DNA from: Polychytrium aggregatum
Taxonomy: Eukaryota > Chytridiomycota > Chytridiomycetes > Polychytriales
DNA: 64,000 bases
Reading direction: 5' to 3'
Assembly: GCF_025602895.1 (NCBI RefSeq)
Contig: NW_026516212.1
Location: 868,001 to 932,000 of the forward strand
Below are positions 42,829-58,933 of this stretch, one piece after another (position 1 is the stretch's first letter; each line of letters opens with the position of its first letter). The notes under the pieces were generated by a model. The model ran no database searches. It saw only the letters and a program-made list of their open reading frames with translations, and had not been told where the DNA came from. The translations under genes and the position numbers were made by a program.

Positions 42829-45800
42829 ATGGCCTCGAGCTCCAGTCTCCCGGCCAAGTCGTTGATGGATGTGGATGTCGATATGGATGTGGATGACACA
42901 ACCTCGAAAGCCCCTGTCCAGCAAACCCAGCCCGAGCCGTCAGGCACGGCACCCTCCAAACCAGCCGACTCCCTTGGTCCCTGGCTCCATCCCATCGAGT
43001 GTCTCATCAACGGCGCCCGCGACGAGCCCGATGCCCTCCTGATCAACACATACGAGAGCGGTGCCTCCGAGCGACACTCCTATCGCCAGGTGTGGAGGAG
43101 AGCATACTCGATCGCCCAGGGGCTCAGGGCCCTCGCCGGCTGGGACGACGCCGACCACGAGGTCATTGGCACCTTCTGCGAGTCCGAGGTCAACTGGGTG
43201 TTCTATTCCCTTGCAGTGTGGATGCTTGGCAAGTGAGTGCTGCTTGGATGCGATCGAGGGCGAGTCCCGCTGCATCAGTCGTCTGCTGCTTGCTTGCTCC
43301 ACACATCCGCCACCAGCACTGTCGATCCAGTGCCATCGTCCATGCTCTGTCCTGGCTTGTGATGCCCTGACTCTGCGATCCTCCCTCCTGACTCTGTGAT
43401 CCTCCCTCCTGGCTCTGCGATCCTCTTGACTCCTCGCTCGTCCCTTGACCACCATCCAGGAAGACAATCAACTTTGGTCTCAACCTGCCTCCGGCTGCCC
43501 GAAAGGCTGTGTGCGACAGGTGTGTGGTCTGTGGGCATGTCTGGATCGTTTGTGGGCATGTCTATTGTCTGTGGGATAGTTCGACCTCAGAAGTGATGAT
43601 GGTGGCAATGTGGGTGTCGATTGATAAACAGCAGCTGACAGGGCTGCATCCATCCAGATACTCGATCAAGTATATCCTGCACCACTGCGTCAAGCCTGGA
43701 CGCACACAGGGAGTGACTCTTGTGGATGCATCGACATTCCCGATGCTGGACGACATCCCACTGCCCTCGCTTGAGGCGTGCGAGCCACTCGATGAGTTCG
43801 TCACATATCTCTCGACTTCTGGAACAACAGGTATGGATGGCAGTCAAAGTATCCGCCAGCTATGTGTCTGGGTGGAGTGCTTGATACATCAGATGAGTGG
43901 CGCATCTGATGGTATGGTGCAATCGAGCAAGTGTCTGTGGGTCATCACAGGATATGCATGATGCTCATGGTGGTTCTTGTTGCTCCTCGACAGGCATCCC
44001 CAAGACGTAAGTGGGTCGAGACTGTGTACTGAGCACAGTCCGAAGCGCTTCAACGGAGATCACTGACCACCCTATGCTCATGAATGTGTATCAGATACAA
44101 GTATTCCTCTTTGAGCCCAACTAGTCTGTACAAGTCGATTGGGATCATCAATATTAGCATCGGACTCTCCCAGGTACGAACCCTTCGCAAGCACCCGAAA
44201 ACATAATTGTTCCTCAACTTACTCCTCCATTTCCACAGGCACCGTCATTCACAATGACGCTAGGTCTCCTCTTGACAACCTTGAATCTCCGAGGGTCAGC
44301 ATGGATTCCAGACACAACTTCAAATTGTGTCGAGAAAGTCCGAAGTATTTCCAAGATGCTCAACGATGGTCTCGAGTTCATGGGATTGGTATGTATGAGA
44401 ACATGTAGATATCCATTTGTATCGAGCTGTGACTAATCAAGATGCTCTGTTATATTATCAGCCTCCCTCGTTCCTCAAATTGATCATCGGAGTCGGAGTG
44501 TCGGAAAACAGGCACATCGTTTGGCGAAGAACAAGAAAGATCCTTCTTGGGTCCGAAATTGTGCCTCGAAGCGTCGTTTGTGAAGCCAGACGCCGCTTCC
44601 CAAATGCCGAGATTCAGTCCGTTTATGGTTCAAGTGAGGTAAGACATAATCAAATCGTAAAATTATTGTGATCTTTAACCATTCGACTGACCGGAGCAAC
44701 GATCTACTCCATCAGTCCGCATTGATAGGCGCCGGAGCTTATTTCAGTCTCCCGGCCGATGCCACCGAAGTCCCTCCCACACTTGTGTACAAGCTCTCCA
44801 AGCCAGGAGTCCGCTGCCATATCATCGACGAGCACGGCAACTTCATCGACAGAAGGTTCTCCAACAGCGGCGTCCTTGTCTTTGCTGTCGATCCCGACCA
44901 TCCAGTCAAGGATCATCCCAGCTTTGTCAACGCCGACCCGGACAACAAGATTGGATACTTTGGCTTCCTCAGCGACGGCTCGCCTCGTGTCTGCACCATG
45001 GACTGGGTCGAGATGGTCAGCGAGAACGAGTTCACTGTGGTCGGAAGGTGAGTGCGATGCAGAGGCACTGTGTCGGTGTGTTGGCTGCGATGTGGCATTC
45101 ATCTCCTGCCTCACCACTCACCCACCACTCATCCACTTGCCATGTATCGACCTCATCACACACCTCTCACTCACATTCCCATCACACATTGCTATCCCAT
45201 CACACACCACCCACATCACCCACACCACCTCTCACCCACATCACCCACATCACCTCTCACCACATTCCCATCTCACCACATCATCCCTCCGCATGCACCA
45301 CTCCAGATTCGACCAGAAGGTCAAGGTCAACGGCGTCTATGTCGACCTCAATGCCCTCGAGGAGCTTGTCAACCAGAACCTGAACCACTCGATCGCCGAC
45401 TGTGCCTTTGTCATGACCTCCGAGAAGCGCATCGTGATGCTCTATGTCCCCCAAAGCGGCCCTGCCATCCTCCTGAGTCCCGCCAACATCATCCTGATGA
45501 CCGAGGAGCTCTTTGCGCTCTCGAACGTCGCCAAGGTCCCGATCCACAACTGCTTTGCGCTCGAGCGATTCCCCTTCAACGACTCCAACAAGCGCGACCT
45601 CAAGAAGCTCAGGCTGTTTGCCGAGAATGTCGAGCAGTACACTGCGTCGGTCGTCTATCCGGCCCTCAGGATCGACAACACTCTCCTGTCCCGCGTCGCT
45701 GCCAAGATCTCTCAGATCGGCAGCCGGGTCCTGGGCAGGGCCGCCCTTGATGGCCGCAACTACTACATTGGCGGTGTCGGCTTTGACTCGCTCAGCGCCG

Positions 45801-47483
45801 GCCGCCTGGCCCTCGCCATCAAGGACGAGCTGGATGTCGAGATCTCGCCGCTGATCCTGCTGTCGAACGGAATGACACCCACCGATGTCGCCCAGCTTGC
45901 CATCGACATGCTCGACGACAGACTGATGGTCCCGCCGACCGTGGATCTGTACCAGGAAGCCGTCAGGTTCGACGATGCGGGTGTGACGGCCGACGGCCTC
46001 CCTCGGTTTGTCTATCCCGACAATCCTCGCGGCATCGTCCTGACGGGGGCCACTGGGTTCCTCGGCGCATTCCTGCTGTACGAGCTGGCCAGCAGGTTCC
46101 CCAGCGCCAAGATCTACTGCCTGGTCCGAGCCAAGGACGAGCAGGCCGCCATCGACCGCATCTTTGACACGGCCAGCAAGCTGATCCTCAACCAGCAGCA
46201 GATGCACGACCTCGAGCACAACATCCGTCCCAGGATCGTGGGTCTTCCCGGCGACCTGGCACAGGACAAGTGGGGGCTGTCGGACGAGCGATGGCAGGAG
46301 ATCAGCGAGCAGAGCGATGTGATTGTGCACAACGGTGCCGAGGTCCACTGGCTCTACAACTACGAGGCACTCAAGGGCCCGAACGTCCTCGGCACGGCGA
46401 CGGCATTGAGACTGGCCACGACCCACCACTTGAAGCCGCTCCACTACATCTCGACGATCGGCACGCTGCCGATGAAGGGCTCGGCCCAGCCGCTCGAGGA
46501 GCGAATGTCGCTGAACTGGAACCTCTCTGGCGGCTACGCACAGACCAAGTGGGTCTCGGAGCAGCTGGTCCACAAGGCACGATCGAGGGGCGTGCCGGTG
46601 ACGATCATCCGACCGGCCGCGATCGTCGGCGAGAGCCGATACGGAGGTGAGCGAGTGGTGATGTGGTGATGTGGGGATGCGGTGATGTGGTGATGTGGTG
46701 ATGTGGTGATGTGGTGATGTGGTGATGTGGTGATGTGATGTGCTTGGTGAGTCCTCGGCCGACACTCACTCGCTTTCTCCATCTCTCTCTCTCGCCACCA
46801 GCATGCAACGTTGATGACTACATCTGGCGATATGTCAAGGGATGCATCCAGATCGGAATCGCTCCCTCCCATGCAACCCCCGTCACCCTGACCATGGACC
46901 CGGTCGACCATGTGGCCAAGGTCGTCACGGCGATTGTGGCCTCGGAGCAGGCCCTCTCCAACTTTGTGTTCCATGTCAGCGACTCGGAGAACAGGTGAGG
47001 ATGTGGCTCATGACATGCTGGGGGAGCAGCGAGTGAGAAGGAAGGGCATGGATAGAGAATGGATGGGACAGCACCCGCTCACCACACCAACCCATCACAC
47101 ACCAACCCATCTCACACCGACACCCCATGCTCAGCCTCATCGCCGAGAAGAAGATCTTTGAGATCGTCAATGCCATGGGCTGGCGAGTCATATTCGAGAC
47201 ACGCGAGCAGTTCAAGATCCTGCTCCACTCGGCTCCCTCCGTCGAGACCAACGCCCTGTTCCCGCTGATGCACATGCTGATGGACATGTCCGTCCAGGTC
47301 GACAACCCCAACACCCGCTCGATCTATCCGACACCGAGTCCCCCGGCCGAGAATGTCGTCGAGCGATGTCTCCGATTCTTGGACCGTGTGAAGTACCTCC
47401 CTGCTCCGCCCGAGCCTGTCTCGCCGCTCCAGACGGACGACTATCCCGATGTCAGCGTCTTTGGCCGCACTGGCCGCAACTGA
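42829..47483 (+). CDS. NRPS-like adenylate-forming reductase (A-T-R)
   Basis: Activates a carboxylic acid as its adenylate, loads it on a phosphopantetheine arm and releases it reductively as an aldehyde or alcohol. Eleven exons (42829-43232, 43460-43519, 43658-43830, 43994-44006, 44095-44173, 44239-44388, 44462-44638, 44716-45047, 45307-46646, 46802-46994, 47135-47483) keep phase and give 1089 residues. A domain: core motif YLSTSGTTGIPKTYKYSS (spread over three exons), VYGSSE, GRFDQKVKVNG. T domain: GFDSLS near residue 620, with the pantetheine Ser. R domain: GIVLTGATGFLGAFLL near 704, then the GGYAQTKWVSEQL catalytic region (Tyr, Lys). It lacks a condensation domain and is shorter than Lys2 alpha-aminoadipate reductase, so a stand-alone carboxylate reductase is likelier. 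The substrate cannot be read. Several introns are minisatellites. Confidence 0.9.
45105..45292. repeat. Imperfect CACATCACC-type repeat filling an intron
   Basis: Most of the intron between 45047 and 45307 consists of CATCACACA, CACCCACAT and CACATCACC units. Confidence 0.85.
46651..46740. repeat. (TGATGTGG)n minisatellite filling an intron
   Basis: About ten near-perfect 8-bp units starting right after the donor site at 46647. It occupies over half of the intron in the R-domain coding region. Confidence 0.95.
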
Positions 47484-52189: not shown

Positions 52190-55100
52190 ATGGCATACAC
52201 GCCTTTGAGCTTCCTGCTCGTGCTCTGCCTCGGCGCTATAGGTAATCCCCTCCTTCTTTGGCGTCGTAGCATTGGTGTTGAGTCTCAATATCGCGCATTG
52301 TGCCCATCGCCTTGGACACCATCGTTGATGGCCAACCACAGACACGCGCCTTTCGGTTGACTGGTGTCGGGGTGGGCCCGAGATATGCCATCGAAATGCC
52401 GTCTAAATCTGAGTCGACACTGTCGTAATGTAGTGGCCCAGGGACAACAGCAGCCAAGTGTTTTCGGCGTCGGGGCGACCTTTCCCCAGTCGCTCTACAC
52501 GGCCCTCACTGGGATCTATTCGGTCTACGATCCAGCCTGGAACTATGGCTATACGGGCACAAGCTCGGGTGCTGGCCGAAGCGCGCTTGCCTCGGGCGGC
52601 GCCAATCTGACCTGGGCCGGATCCGACACGATCCCTTCCAATGTGACCTACGCCGACCCCCAGGGCCGCGCTGCGCAATTCATCCCCGTCCCTTCTGTCG
52701 TCAGGTACATGTCCTGGCTGGGTCAGTGCTTGCCCTGTGGCCGAGTTGCGCGGCCTCGAGTGCGGATATTCCAAATCACCTCCACAACAAATATTCTTGG
52801 GAGTCGCATGAGTCGTGATGCTATCTCCTTGAATGGACTCCGCACAGATCTTCAACAAAGCCCATTCACAACATAACACTAACTCGGCCGGTTTCACCTC
52901 ACCGTCCCTCAGCGCCATTGCAATTGTCTACCACCTCAACATCAGCAGCCTTACCCTTACCCGACAGAACATTGCCGATATTTTCTCTGGAAAGATCACG
53001 AGCTGGAACGACTCCAGACTCGTGCAAAACAACCCGGGGCTCTCGGCCATCAGTGCCCCGCTCCAGACGATCGTTCGGAGCGGAAGCTCCGGAACCACGT
53101 CCAACTTCCAGTATGCCTTGAATCGATTCGACCCCACGCTCAACCTTCCTCCACCGTACATTTATCCGATCTCCTCCTGGGGTGTGGCAAGCACACCCTT
53201 CTTTGGGTCCACCAATCAAATGATATCCGATGCTATTCAGGTCACGCCGAACACGATCGGATATGTTGACTTTCCCGATGCCGACAGTACCTTGCATTCA
53301 TTGACATCGAGCCGCAATCTCTACGCGTTTGCCAACATCATCAATCAGAATGGAGACGTGGTTACGCCTTCGATGCAAACAATCATGGTAAAGTGCTGGC
53401 ATAAATGAATGGAATGAGTGCAGACAATTCGGCCGTGTGGGCCTACATTCGTGTTCAAAAGCTTTGCGAGCACGGGAGGAGACAGCAACAGCAAGCGCCT
53501 GGGCTTGATCGCTGCTATTGGGCTTGCAGAGCAGTTTTGCCTGGCTTTGGCTTCCTCAAGGGGCCAGGAGTGCTTTTCTCTGTGCCTCGCTGCTCGCTGA
53601 CTTTACGACCCGATGCGCATCAATGATCCTCGACTGCCCCAGGCATCGCTTTCGTCCCTCAACGCTGTAAATCTGTCCACGCTCAGCCACTTTTCGGCAG
53701 ATATCGGCAGCTTGCTCCAGTCGACGTACATTGACTCGACCACCCAAAACGCATATCCGCTGATGGCACCGTCCTATGTTTTCCTGCGCCAAGACTCCCA
53801 AATCTACAACGTAACAGAGGCACAGATGCGTGCCACTCTGCGACTCATATTCTGGATGATCTTTGGGGGAACAGAGAGCGTAAGCAAGGCTCGTTTGAAC
53901 AAGAGAATGCTATCTTCATCCTCGCCACATGCAAAACGCATTGGTGCTTTTGGTCTCGATTGCGAGATACAGCGGCGGACTCTCATCTGACCATGCCAAT
54001 TCCAACTGCAGTCTCCATCAAACAGATCAACTGCGGCTCCGACCACGAATCCCTCCTACATCGGACTGAACTTTGCCCATCTCCAGGACACCAAGATTCG
54101 CCAGTTTGCCTTCGACGCCCTCAAGCTCGTTACGCACAACGGGAAGGCACTCTATGATCCCGTGTCGCCCTGTAATCCGTACTTTGACAGCACCGGTGCA
54201 TATGTCAGTGCCAACTCGTGCAAGAATGGATACTGCCTTCTTGACGGACCATTCCAGGACTCCTCCGTGACTCAGTGCATCTGCGACGTTGGATATTACA
54301 ACAACATGAAGACCGACTGCTCGGAGCCATCGGCAGCCTTCATGCTCTTGGTGAATGGAATGCACTCGGGCAATATAGCCATCATGGCGTTTGTGGCAAT
54401 CACCGGGTTGATCAACGTTGCCATTTTGGTCCTGCTTGTCATATGGAGGGACAACCCCAACATCAAGCCCATATCGCCCCGATGCTGCTATGTCATCATG
54501 TTCGGGTCACGTAAGTCGTCCCATCGGACCGAAACAGCCCGTCTCACAGGTTTCCTCAACGGCGGGTTTGTTCCATAGACTCGGCCATGCAGAGAGTTGT
54601 CGTCGCTGATTCCGCATTTCTTCCAGTTATTGGTCAGATTGGTTCGGTCTTCTACTCAGCAGAGCCCAGCCCCTTGATTTGCTCATCCCGTATATTCTTT
54701 CCGGTCATTGCGTTTTCGTCCGTGTTCAGGTGAGTTTCCTGTGCCTTGTGCATTGATTCGCAGCGATGAGGGGTCGGTCTTGGCGATCAAAGTTGGGCTT
54801 GCTTTAGATGTGGTGTTTGTTGTGTCGTTCTGGCTGCTTGCTATGACAAAGTATATTCACGGCCCCCGTAACGAATCTCTGTCGAATGGCTCCGGGTCTG
54901 TTTCAGCATGCTTCTCTTGAAGTCGGTGAGAATATACATGATATTCGAGAACCGACGCATGCGCGTCTTCAAGACTCCCGACTGGAAGCTCATTTTGATC
55001 ACCATGATCATTGTGATGATCCAAGTCGTCATCTGCATCATATGGATTGTCGCGGAGAGACCCGTCACCCAGGTCCAAGGCAGCCTCTATGCACTCGTAT

Positions 55101-55978
55101 GCGTTCCGTCGACAGGCGCAATCGTTGCCCCCGAGGCGCTCCTCTACACCATCAACAGCTTGATCCTGGTTGGATGTGTGGTGCTCGCCTATCTGACCCG
55201 GAAGGCTCACCAGCGGTTTCAAGAGTCAAAGTCCATCGCCTTCTGCAGCTACATCGTGCTGATGACGCTTCTTCTGTGCTTGCCGATCGTTTACGTGCTC
55301 TCCAATAGCACCGACTCACAGGCGCTCTTCATGATCGGACGCATCATGGTCTCGGCTCTGACGATCGTGATTTCTTCGCTGGTCCCCGCGGCTCTCTTTG
55401 GCGTAAGGCTGATCACAACTTTCAAGAACGAAAGGAGTGACAGGGAATCCCAGACCCAGCGAGCGACCTCTCGACCAAGCCAGGCTTCCTCGGTTACCAG
55501 CCAAGGGATGGCCAAGGCCAACGTGATCGCCTACGCCTATGACTGCGGGGTTCAAGGTATCAAGTTTGGTGGTGCCTGGGTTTCGTCGACGGTCGTGGTG
55601 TTTCCGGGACTGGATGTCATCGACTTCAGAGAGCCCGATTCGGATGGCGCTATCCAAGCAAGCTTTCGCTTCTCTTCATGCGACTGCGGAATATGCGATC
55701 AGTCGAGTGATCCAGGGTCTGAGAAGGCCCTCGCACGAAGAGTCCGCCTGCGCCGCAACAAGGCAACGTACTTTCTCGAGTTTGGATCCAAGGACACCGC
55801 GCTCACGTTTTTGGTCAACCATGCCGAGGTCAAGGCGAGACCCAGTGTAGCCTCAGCCAAGAAGGGAGAGGGCTTCGGGGCGGCTGCTGTCGCAGGCACC
55901 GCCAAGAGAGGCAACACAGTATATGATCTGTTGGACAAGCAAGCAGGCACCGAGTCAACGAAGAGTGCAATGGACTAA
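52190..55978 (+). CDS. Class C GPCR with PstS-like phosphate-binding ectodomain
   Basis: Seven exons (52190-52241, 52434-52704, 52913-53387, 53643-53879, 54012-54510, 54627-54729, 54907-55978) keep phase and give 902 residues. Order: signal peptide (MAYTPLSFLLVLCLGAI); a type 2 periplasmic-binding domain with PstS marks (FGVGATFPQSLY, YGYTGTSSGAGRSAL, WAGSDT, LTRQNIADIFSGKITSWND, RSGSSGTTSNFQYAL, TIGYVDFPDA) to about residue 430; a Cys module (CKNGYCLLDG, CICDVGYY); then seven helices. These include IAIMAFVAITGLINVAILVL, a CSSRIFFPVIAFSSVF segment flowing into LLLKSVRIYMIF (the class C helix-3 region), LILITMIIVMIQVVICIIW and IMVSALTIVISSLVPAALFG. A cytoplasmic tail of about 200 residues follows. 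It could sense phosphate or another small anion at the surface (inference). The fourth intron choice is supported by PstS order. Confidence 0.85.
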
Positions 55979-56309: not shown

Positions 56310-58682
56310 TCACTTTGGCAGCCTCCGAGTGAAGACCGCCGGTCGCTCTCCGATCTCCACAATCGACCTGCACACTGTGATCATGTTGCGCGCCGCATTG
56401 ACGTCGCGATTCCACACTGTCCGGCAGCTGGGATTCTTGCAGCTCCTGACAAAGTGGGAATTCGCAACACTGGGCGCATCGAGTCCTTCCAACCGAACTG
56501 GCTCCAGGCACTTGGAGCACACTTGCGAGGTGTTGAACTCGTTCGTCGAGGCCACCTTGACGCTTCCATGATGGTGATTGGGACGGCGTCGGTGGTGCTC
56601 GAATTGCTCAAAGTACCGAGCAAACCGCTGCCTCCGAGGGCTGGATGCATAGCCCTTGCCTTGACGCCATGACGCATTGCCAAAGGCGATCACCACATCG
56701 GTCCGTATCGGGGCGTGCTTCAGGACGGCCTTGCACATCCTGTCGACGGCCACTTGGCGCCTCCTGTGGCCCGTGAATCGATGGTGACGGGCCTTCTTGC
56801 CAAGGTGGAAGTCGAGCTGCACTCGCAGCTCCGGTCGCAGGACATGGGTGAGATGGACCTTGAAGGCCTCCGAGGACGACACCTTGGGCGAGGGGGTGGT
56901 CGACATCTAGGTCTCGATGCTGAGTCGATACTTCATGGTGTTGTGCCACTCAGTATTGGACGTATGGCCACACATTTACTGATAGTGACCATTGGAGAAC
57001 GAGACCACCTCGTCTTGGTGGCTCGGTGCTTGGATGACCGCCGTGAAGATGGAGCCGACTCCAGGATCGATGCCAATCCAAGTGGTGCGATCGGGGTCTG
57101 GGTCGCCGATGTGGGCCTGGATACGCTGCTCGGCAGTCGGAGGAGGCTCGGAGGTCTCGGTGCGATCGGTTCGACGCAGAAACTTGACGAGACCGATGGT
57201 GCATCCAATGCCATCGGTGCTGATCTCGTAGTTGAACAGCTTCTTGTCCACGTCCCGTTCTTGGAAGAGGGAGCTACGCAGCTTGAAGCAACTGCGCCAG
57301 AGACGATCCTGGTTGTTGACACCGTCCTCACCTTCTTCCTTGAGCTTGTCCCTGGTGAGTCCAAGGCGATGTTCGGTGTCAAGGAGTTGCCAGAGAGTGA
57401 CCGTGTCGATCTTGACATACTTGGCCCTTGCAGTGCATAGAGGAACCATCGTGCACACGGCCGGAGGAGTGTCAAGAGTGAGCTGCTTGAGTGCCCAGTT
57501 GAGCCTGGATGCCAGCTTGTTGATCTTGGCCTTGGTGGTGCCGAGCTCAGACTTGGCCGTGGTGAACCTCTTGTCGTCGGAGGGAATGCCTTGGGTAGTG
57601 AGCTCGTCCAGCTTGGCCTGGCGCTGCAGCTCGGTGACTCGGAGGGCGGGCATGTCACAGTCGATCCACTTGTGGACATCGTCGACCATCTTGTCCCGGG
57701 CAAGGATCCCCACATGGTGTGAGAGGCGATGGAGGGCCCGGAAGCGGTCCCGGTCGTTGCTGTACCGAAACTCGTCCAGGATATGGCCAAAGTCTGGATA
57801 GAGGAACTCGAGATCGGCCTTGGGTGGAGTCTGCCCTGGTTTCTCGAAGAGCTCGAGACAGGCCTCGATGGCTTCGTGCTTATGCTTGTTGGCTGGGAAG
57901 ACAGCAGCACAGAAGCGGCGAAGGAGTCGCCAGTAGGCCAGGTCGAAGTGGGTGGTGCGGTTGGTGGCATAGGCATTGACAGCGAGAGTGAGAAGCTGAC
58001 TGTGAGCACCATCAGGCAGACGAGGGGCCGGAGGCAGGTCTGCGTGCCGAGTGGTCTGGTAGTCGCGAAAGGAAGCGACCAGATGCTCGTTGTATTTCTC
58101 ATTGTCCCTGGTCGGGGAGAGCGCATCGGCCTCGACAATCGTGAAGCATTGGCGGATGAAAGCAGGGGTGGCCCTGGAGATGACGGGGACGGGAAGATCC
58201 TGCTCGATGCACCGGAGGATGTGCAGGTTGAGCAGCCTGGATGCCTCGAACTGGATCTGGGTCATGGCCTCGACGGTGGCCTGGATCTTGTCGCGGAGAG
58301 CGGGATTGAGACAACAGCCATCCATCGTCTGCTTGAAGCAGCTGAACTGAGGGGCGGATGACCTTCCATCCACGAGTGGGACGACGGAACTCTTGAGGGG
58401 CCGGTATTTGGGACACCTGTTGGTGTTGCTTCGCTGATGATCGGTGCCATCGCACTTGCGACATCGCTTGCCGGTACTCGAGGAAGTAGATGGACCAGGC
58501 TCGGTGGGATCGACATCCATTGGATCTGCAGAAGCAGTGGTGGTGAGCGACGGAGCAACAGACGAACAAGCATGCGTGGGGTCAGAATACGAACCAGAGA
58601 CAGGCTCCGACTGTGACTTGGCTTTCTTGGGCCTGGGTGGCCGAGGCTGGCCATCACCGGTACCCTTGCGCTTCGGAGGCAT
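56310..58682 (-). pseudogene. Fanzor (eukaryotic TnpB-like RNA-guided nuclease), frame interrupted by two stop codons
   Basis: A 791-codon frame with no frameshift but a TAA at codon 569 (56976-56978) and a TAG at codon 592 (56907-56909). The 22 codons between them (MCGHTSNTEWHN and on) fit the conserved stretch after RuvC-I, so they look coding. N-terminus: basic NLS-like PPKRK and RPPRPKKAK, a Ser/Pro-rich stretch, then a zinc-knuckle-like CRKCDGTDHQ with a later Cys. RuvC-I is WIGIDPGVGSIFTAV. The usual RuvC-II Glu site reads VVIAFGNASW, and the alternative Glu is in STNEFNTSQVC. The zinc ribbon is CSKC then CKNPSC, and RuvC-III is WNRDVNAARNM. A TATAAA lies upstream (58812-58817 on this strand). 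Intact Fanzors cut DNA using an RNA made from the element's end. Confidence 0.9.
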
Positions 58683-58933
58683 GGGGGCAGAGGATGCTGG
58701 ATGCCTGCCAGTGGTACTGGTCAGAGCAGAGACTTCTCTTTATCGTACAATAGCGCGATGATCAGATCAAGGCGAGATGAGGGAAGAAAGCAGCAGGACG
58801 AAGGTGTGGCATTTATACCCGAGAGCAGGAGCCCGTCTTTGCGGGCTGGTTGGGAAGTGACCCTGTTCAAAAATCGCCGAGAGGTTCAAGCCAGGGATTT
58901 GAGCGTGAAAATGGCGGCTTGATTGGAGGGAAC
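58683..58933 (-). promoter_or_regulatory. Spacer between transposase and Fanzor with TATA box
   Basis: TATAAA on the minus strand at 58812-58817, about 130 bp before the Fanzor start codon, suggests the Fanzor gene has its own promoter. Confidence 0.5.

Follow-up and report, generated by a model that had tools for sequence, protein, structure and literature searches.

The window, i.e., the whole stretch of 64,000 nucleotides analysed here from the chytrid fungus Polychytrium aggregatum (RefSeq assembly GCF_025602895.1, contig NW_026516212.1, positions 868,001 to 932,000 of the forward strand), has a G+C content of 55-59% in its 8-kb stretches and carries on its + strand a gene at 52190-55978 (Table 1). 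Splice-aware modelling divides this gene, from ATG to stop, into seven exons separated by introns that are all GT-AG, and its product of 902 amino acids (aa) joins a module resembling PstS, the bacterial phosphate-binding protein, to the seven-helix transmembrane domain (7TM) of class C receptors. Such a fusion of a bacterial-type phosphate-binding domain with a class C receptor had been proposed, with exactly these ATG-to-stop limits, in a first-pass annotation of the same DNA, and it is borne out by an unbroken frame through exon 5 and by a paralogue holding both halves in one frame. The motifs cited in its favour, namely GVGATFP, TGTSSGAGR, WAGSDT, FSGKITSWND, RSGSSGTT, IGYVDF and KSVRIYMIF, are all found within the spliced product, and in profile searches both halves match their families, i.e., PBP_like_2/PstS and 7tm_3, over the Pfam cut-offs.

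Table 1. Features of the receptor gene and of its neighbours, in positions of the window; the phosphate contacts are numbered by residue.
Feature	Position	Strand	Content and evidence
Exon 1	52190..52241	+	Start codon, most of the signal peptide (MAYTPLSFLLVLCLGAI); GT donor at 52242, hydropathy peak at residues 1-24
Exon 2	52434..52704	+	Start of the PstS module, contacts Thr33, Phe34, Ser62, Asp82; GT-AG junctions, Pfam and NCBIfam matches
Thr33, Phe34, Ser62, Asp82	exon 2		Equivalent to E. coli Thr10, Phe11, Ser38, Asp56
Exon 3	52913..53387	+	Second PstS lobe, contacts Arg163, Ser167, Gly168, Thr169, Asn209
Arg163, Ser167, Gly168, Thr169, Asn209	exon 3		Equivalent to E. coli Arg135, Ser139, Gly140, Thr141, Asn177
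Exon 4	53643..53879	+	PstS module continued, C-terminal part; Pfam, NCBIfam and PDB profile matches
Exon 5	54012..54510	+	End of the PstS module (to ~54158), EGF-like linker, helix 1, start of helix 2
Six-cysteine EGF-like linker	54165-54323	+	Within exon 5; cysteine pattern
Helix 1	54375-54455	+	Within exon 5; hydropathy
Exon 6	54627..54729	+	Remainder of helix 2, first part of helix 3 including Cys530
Exon 7	54907..55978	+	Remainder of helix 3 (Lys551), helices 4-7 (to ~55423), cytoplasmic tail, stop; 7tm_3 and mGlu/CaSR matches
Conserved cytoplasmic domain, ~104 residues	55523..55834	+	After helix 7; possibly PH-like (weak)
Fanzor-like (eukaryotic TnpB) frame	56310-56906	-	Cas12f1-like TNB zinc-ribbon domain, E 3.8e-10
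Fanzor-like frame, longer	56979-58739	-	No Pfam match at E up to 0.01
Possible aminoadipate/carboxylic acid reductase type enzyme, carrier and reductase end	44729-46669	+	Likeness by eye (GFDSLSAGRLA, TGATGFLG)

Following a hydrophobic signal segment (residues 1-24, by hydropathy), the ectodomain, which spans residues 23-394 once the signal peptide is removed, matches PBP_like_2 of Pfam over residues 20-317 (E 3.3e-20, 73.4 bits against a cut-off of 27) and the PstS model TIGR00975 of NCBIfam over residues 29-344 (E 7e-34); NCBIfam gives three matches with E no higher than 0.01, all of them to PstS models. Against solved structures, it retrieves PstS and related phosphate-binding (DING-type) chains, with a best E of 2e-12 for the single sequence and of 4e-29 for a six-member profile; 22 of the 23 PDB matches in the former search and 23 of the 24 in the latter are named phosphate-binding, phosphate-transport or DING, and the one remaining match in each is labelled alkaline phosphatase. 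The PstS module looks full-length, since a segment of exon 5 ending in GKALYD aligns by eye with the C-terminus of E. coli PstS, which ends in GKPLY. Downstream, the linker exhibits six cysteines (residues 399, 415, 420, 434, 436, and 448), all of which are present in 12 of the 14 representatives compared from the family described below; the automatic models of L019 and L016 miss the second half of this segment. Pfam EGF gives no match in the linker of the window protein and an E of 2.3e-5 at the same position in the C365 paralogue, and at E up to 0.01 the window protein has no Pfam match to the nine-cysteine linker NCD3G, its place being taken by the six-cysteine EGF-like segment.

The membrane half matches 7tm_3 over residues 466-706 (E 1.5e-40, 139.9 bits against a cut-off of 33.5), and its closest solved structure is mGlu3 (E 9.8e-17), followed by other mGlu receptors, CaSR, and GABA-B. 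Seven hydrophobic segments appear by simple hydropathy, with overlapping windows merged by hand, at about residues 461-493, 503-523, 527-559, 569-602, 616-646, 653-682, and 683-718, while a weaker hydrophobic stretch at 98-124 falls inside the PstS module. Class C receptors are marked by a pair of cysteines joining the third transmembrane helix (TM3) to the second extracellular loop (ECL2), by a lysine in TM3, and by a glutamate in TM6; the corresponding Cys530, Cys611, Lys551, and Glu652 are present and each is kept in 14/14 representatives. By these matches, the membrane half is assigned to the class C, or glutamate family, 7TM. After helix 7 comes a cytoplasmic domain with 13 invariant columns in nine family members, which can be aligned in all 14 representatives, most weakly in L022. 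It may be an undescribed domain; that of the window member matches no Pfam family, and a PDB profile search gives at best E 0.8, to two sequences labelled uncharacterised. A PH-like identity is possible, the matches being weak (PH_29, E 0.0027 in one of nine members; PH, E 0.1 in one of nine).

Scans of the assembly itself (64.7 Mb, 418 contigs), in which all counts of domain matches are lower bounds, found 28 matches to PBP_like_2, every one of them followed on the same strand, 424-1966 base pairs downstream, by a match to 7tm_3; none of these 28 is a soluble PstS gene, all being paired with 7tm_3. Conversely, 34 matches to 7tm_3 exceed the cut-off alone, 28 of which are paired with PBP_like_2 and six unpaired (one each on contigs C210, C334, C104, and C417, and two on C359); two more (C36, C361), passing only with their neighbours, were left out of the pairing count. 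In a by-eye comparison, neither the two ANF_receptor matches nor the two SBP_bac_1 matches of the genome adjoin a listed 7tm_3 match. The 28 matches were grouped manually into about 14 groups, or loci, with 97.6-100% identity within a group, and the groups of L017 and L021, being 97.3-97.5% identical, could be merged to give 13. In many cases, a group consists of two copies located on separate contigs, which probably represent the two haplotypes; no near-identical partner exists for the window locus, C365, or L016. Identity to the window protein is 56-63% for nine groups and 31-36% for four, namely C365, L016, L022, and L011. The gene models of the paralogues are automatic and imperfect, e.g., that of L012 (C35:249000-255500) has in its membrane part a 46-base intron absent from its 97.6% identical partner L013; the L012 copy is possibly damaged, or else misread. 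Further afield, a single scan of GTDB contigs yielded 57 bacterial loci from several phyla at 22-33% identity, which are too distant for a bacterial donor to be named, and one scan of viral contigs confirmed no viral homologue.

Built by hand and by protein-guided alignment, the gene model could have joined two neighbouring genes or described a pseudogene, but the evidence leaves very little room for such an artefact, which we regard as highly improbable. The open frame at 53991-54578, to which exon 5 belongs, continues from the last part of the PstS module across the EGF-like linker into helix 1, and the C365 paralogue presents both domains, each over its Pfam cut-off, in one uninterrupted intron-free frame of 985 aa counted from the Met used; on these two grounds, separate genes were rejected. 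No signal peptide is seen in the C365 frame and an upstream exon may thus be missing there. Introns 2-6 occupy an identical codon and phase in 10/10 close paralogous models (nine groups), these models having been aligned to the window protein, which itself holds no intron positions. Among the four divergent loci, L016 and L022 share introns 2, 3, 5, and 6, L011 shares introns 2 and 5, and C365 has none of them. Against L012, L010, and L014, the ratio of non-synonymous to synonymous substitution rates (dN/dS) is 0.11-0.25 in three regions of the gene, with synonymous sites near saturation, and the co-occurrence of PBP_like_2 and 7tm_3 in 28/28 cases likewise speaks against an artefact. From the Pfam and structure matches, the shared introns, and the dN/dS, it follows that the fusion is far beyond chance, and a fused receptor gene is near certain. 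At the level of single exons, the exon 3 acceptor was picked because it restores the uninterrupted PstS alignment of the intron-free C365 paralogue, and that of exon 6, at 54626, because the alignment with the paralogues is then continuous. An exon 2/3 junction with acceptor 52847 and an exon 6 start at 54579 were dropped in favour of acceptors that end at 52912 and 54626, respectively, since each had produced an insertion absent from the paralogues. Exon 1 is the least certain, since the codon and phase of intron 1 are common to only four of the ten close models and not to the other six.

In E. coli PstS, phosphate is contacted by Thr10, Phe11, Ser38, Asp56, Arg135, Ser139, Gly140, and Thr141. 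The contacts published for PhoX, i.e., Ser34, Ser62, Asp80, Arg159, Gly164, Thr165, and Asn201 (PMC5439949), agree by spacing with six of these eight and add an Asn corresponding, by spacing, to E. coli Asn177. All nine contacts are kept in the window protein (Table 1), as they are in 7/13 other representatives (with Ser for Thr10 in two), including some just 32-36% identical to it overall. In the most divergent family member, L022/L036 (C62, C375), L022 carries His instead of the Arg that binds phosphate and keeps the other eight contacts. When the window protein is taken with the four divergent loci, a set grouped by tree and not by contact residues, 8/9 contacts are invariant (Ser being equated with Thr) vs 53/316 other ectodomain columns (P 8e-6). 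With the four close loci that keep the contacts, the excess is modest, with 9/9 vs 179/359 (P 0.002), and for the eight kept loci together it is 9/9 vs 60/330 (P 4e-7), a comparison that is partly circular as these loci were first recognised by the same residues. Among 52 bacterial relatives (those of the 57 longer than 300 aa, the five shorter being dropped), no variation is seen at Phe11, Ser38, Asp56, Arg135, Asp137, Ser139, Gly140, and Thr141, and the Thr10 position is occupied by Ser or Thr, Asn177 lying outside the residues tabulated.

Some members of the family depart from this pattern. In L031, L020, L017, L021, and L023, which share the same architecture, four contacts are replaced in every one, namely Thr10 by Asn or Asp, Phe11 by Ala, Pro, or Thr, Arg135 by Asn or Ile, and Thr141 by Leu, Ile, or Met. 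Their ectodomains are 55-60% identical to that of the window protein, compared with 63-67% for the close paralogues that keep the contacts. In ectodomain trees, the five loci form one clade (support 100/99), which persists after removal of the contact columns together with the two flanking columns on either side (support 97/96); as its two subgroups stay apart in the 7TM tree, a single origin of this clade rests on the ectodomain. Columns that do not vary among five kept loci but differ in all five lost ones include 4/9 contacts vs 8/359 other ectodomain columns, a difference (P 8e-5) to be read as indicative because the two groups were first recognised by their contact residues, and 0/240 columns of the 7TM. 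The lost clade itself shows no particular conservation of the contacts (3/9 vs 187/362, P 0.92), and its L019/L020 pair has a high dN/dS of 0.44-0.73, on 2-7 synonymous changes per region. A changed ligand is likely for this clade, and short of certain because a PstS of SAR11 binds phosphate although its Arg is replaced by Pro (PMC12421899).

Judged from its sequence, the window gene probably encodes a class C G protein-coupled receptor (GPCR) for extracellular phosphate. Its PstS-type (type II) Venus flytrap would form the ligand-binding shell, in which inorganic phosphate would be held between the lobes by the nine contact residues, i.e., Thr33, Phe34, Ser62, Asp82, Arg163, Ser167, Gly168, Thr169, and Asn209. 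Class C receptors work as dimers, and closure of the trap, probably within such a dimer, would be relayed by the EGF-like linker, rich in disulphides, to the seven helices, and these would then activate a heterotrimeric G protein, while the conserved domain on the cytoplasmic side probably influences coupling or trafficking. The genome contains 80 G-alpha matches, counted exon by exon, which make coupling to a heterotrimeric G protein possible. There are also eight matches to a radial-spoke gene of the flagellar axoneme, six of them on one contig, and this gene together with the many G-alpha matches fits a zoosporic fungus; with such a flagellar gene in the genome, phosphate outside the cell could guide the swimming of spores or signal nutrient status ahead of uptake. 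In fungi, phosphate sensing has been ascribed to transporter-sensors (Pho84) and to SPX domains reading inositol pyrophosphates (PMC10437122), and as SPX-domain matches are present in the genome, a sensor of outside phosphate would work beside the usual internal sensing.

The most specific form of this proposal, i.e., a dedicated phosphate GPCR with inorganic phosphate as orthosteric agonist of a PstS trap on a class C 7TM, in about 14 loci of which one clade has switched contacts and ligand, is put forward tentatively, with somewhat less than even confidence. Several observations weigh against phosphate. The ectodomain misses the NCBIfam PstS equivalog cut-off (117.3 vs 205 bits) and is best described as PstS-like, not as a transporter PstS. 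When all 14 loci are taken together, invariance is not significantly more frequent among the contacts than elsewhere (3/9 vs 36/316, P 0.08), which is explained by the five loci that have lost four of them, and the same loss means that the architecture alone does not guarantee phosphate as ligand. The SAR11 case further implies that contact residues and ligand do not correspond one-to-one. Finally, Asp137, kept in 52/52 bacterial relatives, is Gly in 28/28 fungal models, altering the charge beside the Arg. The first-pass suggestion of a direct sensor of phosphate or of another oxyanion is thus strengthened as to the nine contacts and weakened as to this conserved Asp. A receptor of the same build might respond instead to another oxyanion or to a phosphorylated metabolite (phosphonate, glycerol phosphate, arsenate, sulphate), phosphate being merely ancestral; this we hold to be unlikely, though worth keeping in mind, as the four contacts replaced in one paralogous clade suggest that ligands probably drift within the family and yeast Pho84 is said to respond to glycerol-3-phosphate as an agonist (PMC10437122). 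What tells against it is the retention of all nine contacts in the window protein and seven other representatives down to 32-36% identity, together with that of Asp56 in 28/28 models. In PstS, Asp56 discriminates phosphate from sulphate. As for the Gly, the second-best PDB match, 1qui, is an E. coli PstS chain that also has Gly at the Asp137 position, and it was reportedly crystallised with phosphate.

A further alternative concerns signalling and not the ligand. The ectodomain could serve in adhesion or in trapping phosphate without signalling, or the receptor could be an obligate heterodimer partner whose other subunit signals. Heterodimers are common in class C, and in GABA-B or taste receptors one subunit signals; about 14 paralogous loci, some with an altered pocket, are what would be expected of paired subunits, some kept and some changed. 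We consider this improbable, since the TM3 Lys and the TM6 Glu are kept in both subclades and, with none of the 240 columns of the 7TM showing the kept/lost pattern, nothing suggests a loss of signalling in either. With its intact PstS pocket, the window receptor offers a concrete and directly testable ligand for an orphan receptor class. The lost clade, with four of nine contacts changed and the remaining protein similar, provides in turn a natural control pair for ligand-switch experiments, and, if the reading is true, the split family would be a natural record of a Venus-flytrap receptor changing specificity.

Besides the receptor gene, two features of the window were noted (Table 1). Just downstream lies a Fanzor-like copy which, being split over two open frames, may be interrupted or hold an intron. 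Upstream, a frame resembles by eye the carrier and reductase end of another enzyme.

With respect to known systems, the first-pass annotation had held that other class C receptors use LIVBP- or BMP-type modules and knew of no described fungal receptor of this kind, and both points need correcting. Krishnan et al. (2012) listed 96 glutamate-family receptors in four fungi, with PBP_like_2 (PF12849) in SPPG_06488 of Spizellomyces punctatus and OpuAC, SBP_bac_1, and LysR_substrate on further receptors (PMC3251606). Like the window receptor, SPPG_06488 combines PBP_like_2 and a 7TM in one fungal protein, but in the accessible text it is named in a list without ligand, binding-site, or family analysis, and the two were compared by domain content only. 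In gut fungi, whose zoospores are motile as well, Seppala et al. (2016) reported type-II binding domains on almost half of the class C receptors, where the periplasmic-type ectodomain likewise replaces ANF (PMC5168858). Their ectodomains were likened to sugar-uptake binding proteins, whereas the NCBIfam matches of the window receptor with E no higher than 0.01 are all PstS. More recently, Liu et al. (2025) counted 918 receptors of the glutamate class, with an enrichment in Blastocladiomycota and Chytridiomycota (PMC12842992), and a 2026 review describes the fungal class C receptors (class XVI) as uncharacterised and with no ligand (PMC13308352). In the open-licence literature searched, to the extent of its accessible text, no description of a phosphate site in a PBP_like_2 class C receptor was found; as such, the architecture is already listed, whereas an intact phosphate site, the family size, and the family split were not encountered there.

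Outside the fungi, bacterial PstS (E. coli, Mycobacterium tuberculosis PstS1/PstS3) shares homology over most of the module and the nine phosphate contacts, but acts as a transporter partner, whereas the window protein appears to be a membrane receptor, with Gly for Asp137, a score below the equivalog level, and an EGF-like linker followed by a 7TM. The mGlu, CaSR, and GABA-B receptors resemble it by the sequence of the 7TM, the TM3-ECL2 cysteines, the TM3 Lys, and the TM6 Glu, and differ in that its ectodomain derives from another binding-protein family and its linker is EGF-like with no match to NCD3G. That linker, typical of the mGlu/CaSR/taste branch, is not required for class C membership, GABA-B being without it (PMC5168858). 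In mGlyR and GPR179, a non-ANF ligand domain, Cache, also sits on an EGF-like domain ahead of a class C 7TM, but Cache is not of PstS type and the Cache/EGF module was reported there from metazoans only (PMC12716839). CaSR is a class C receptor reported to respond to extracellular phosphate (Centeno et al., 2019; PMC6795806), where phosphate acts as a non-competitive antagonist needing R62, while the predicted phosphate pocket of the window receptor would be its main ligand site.

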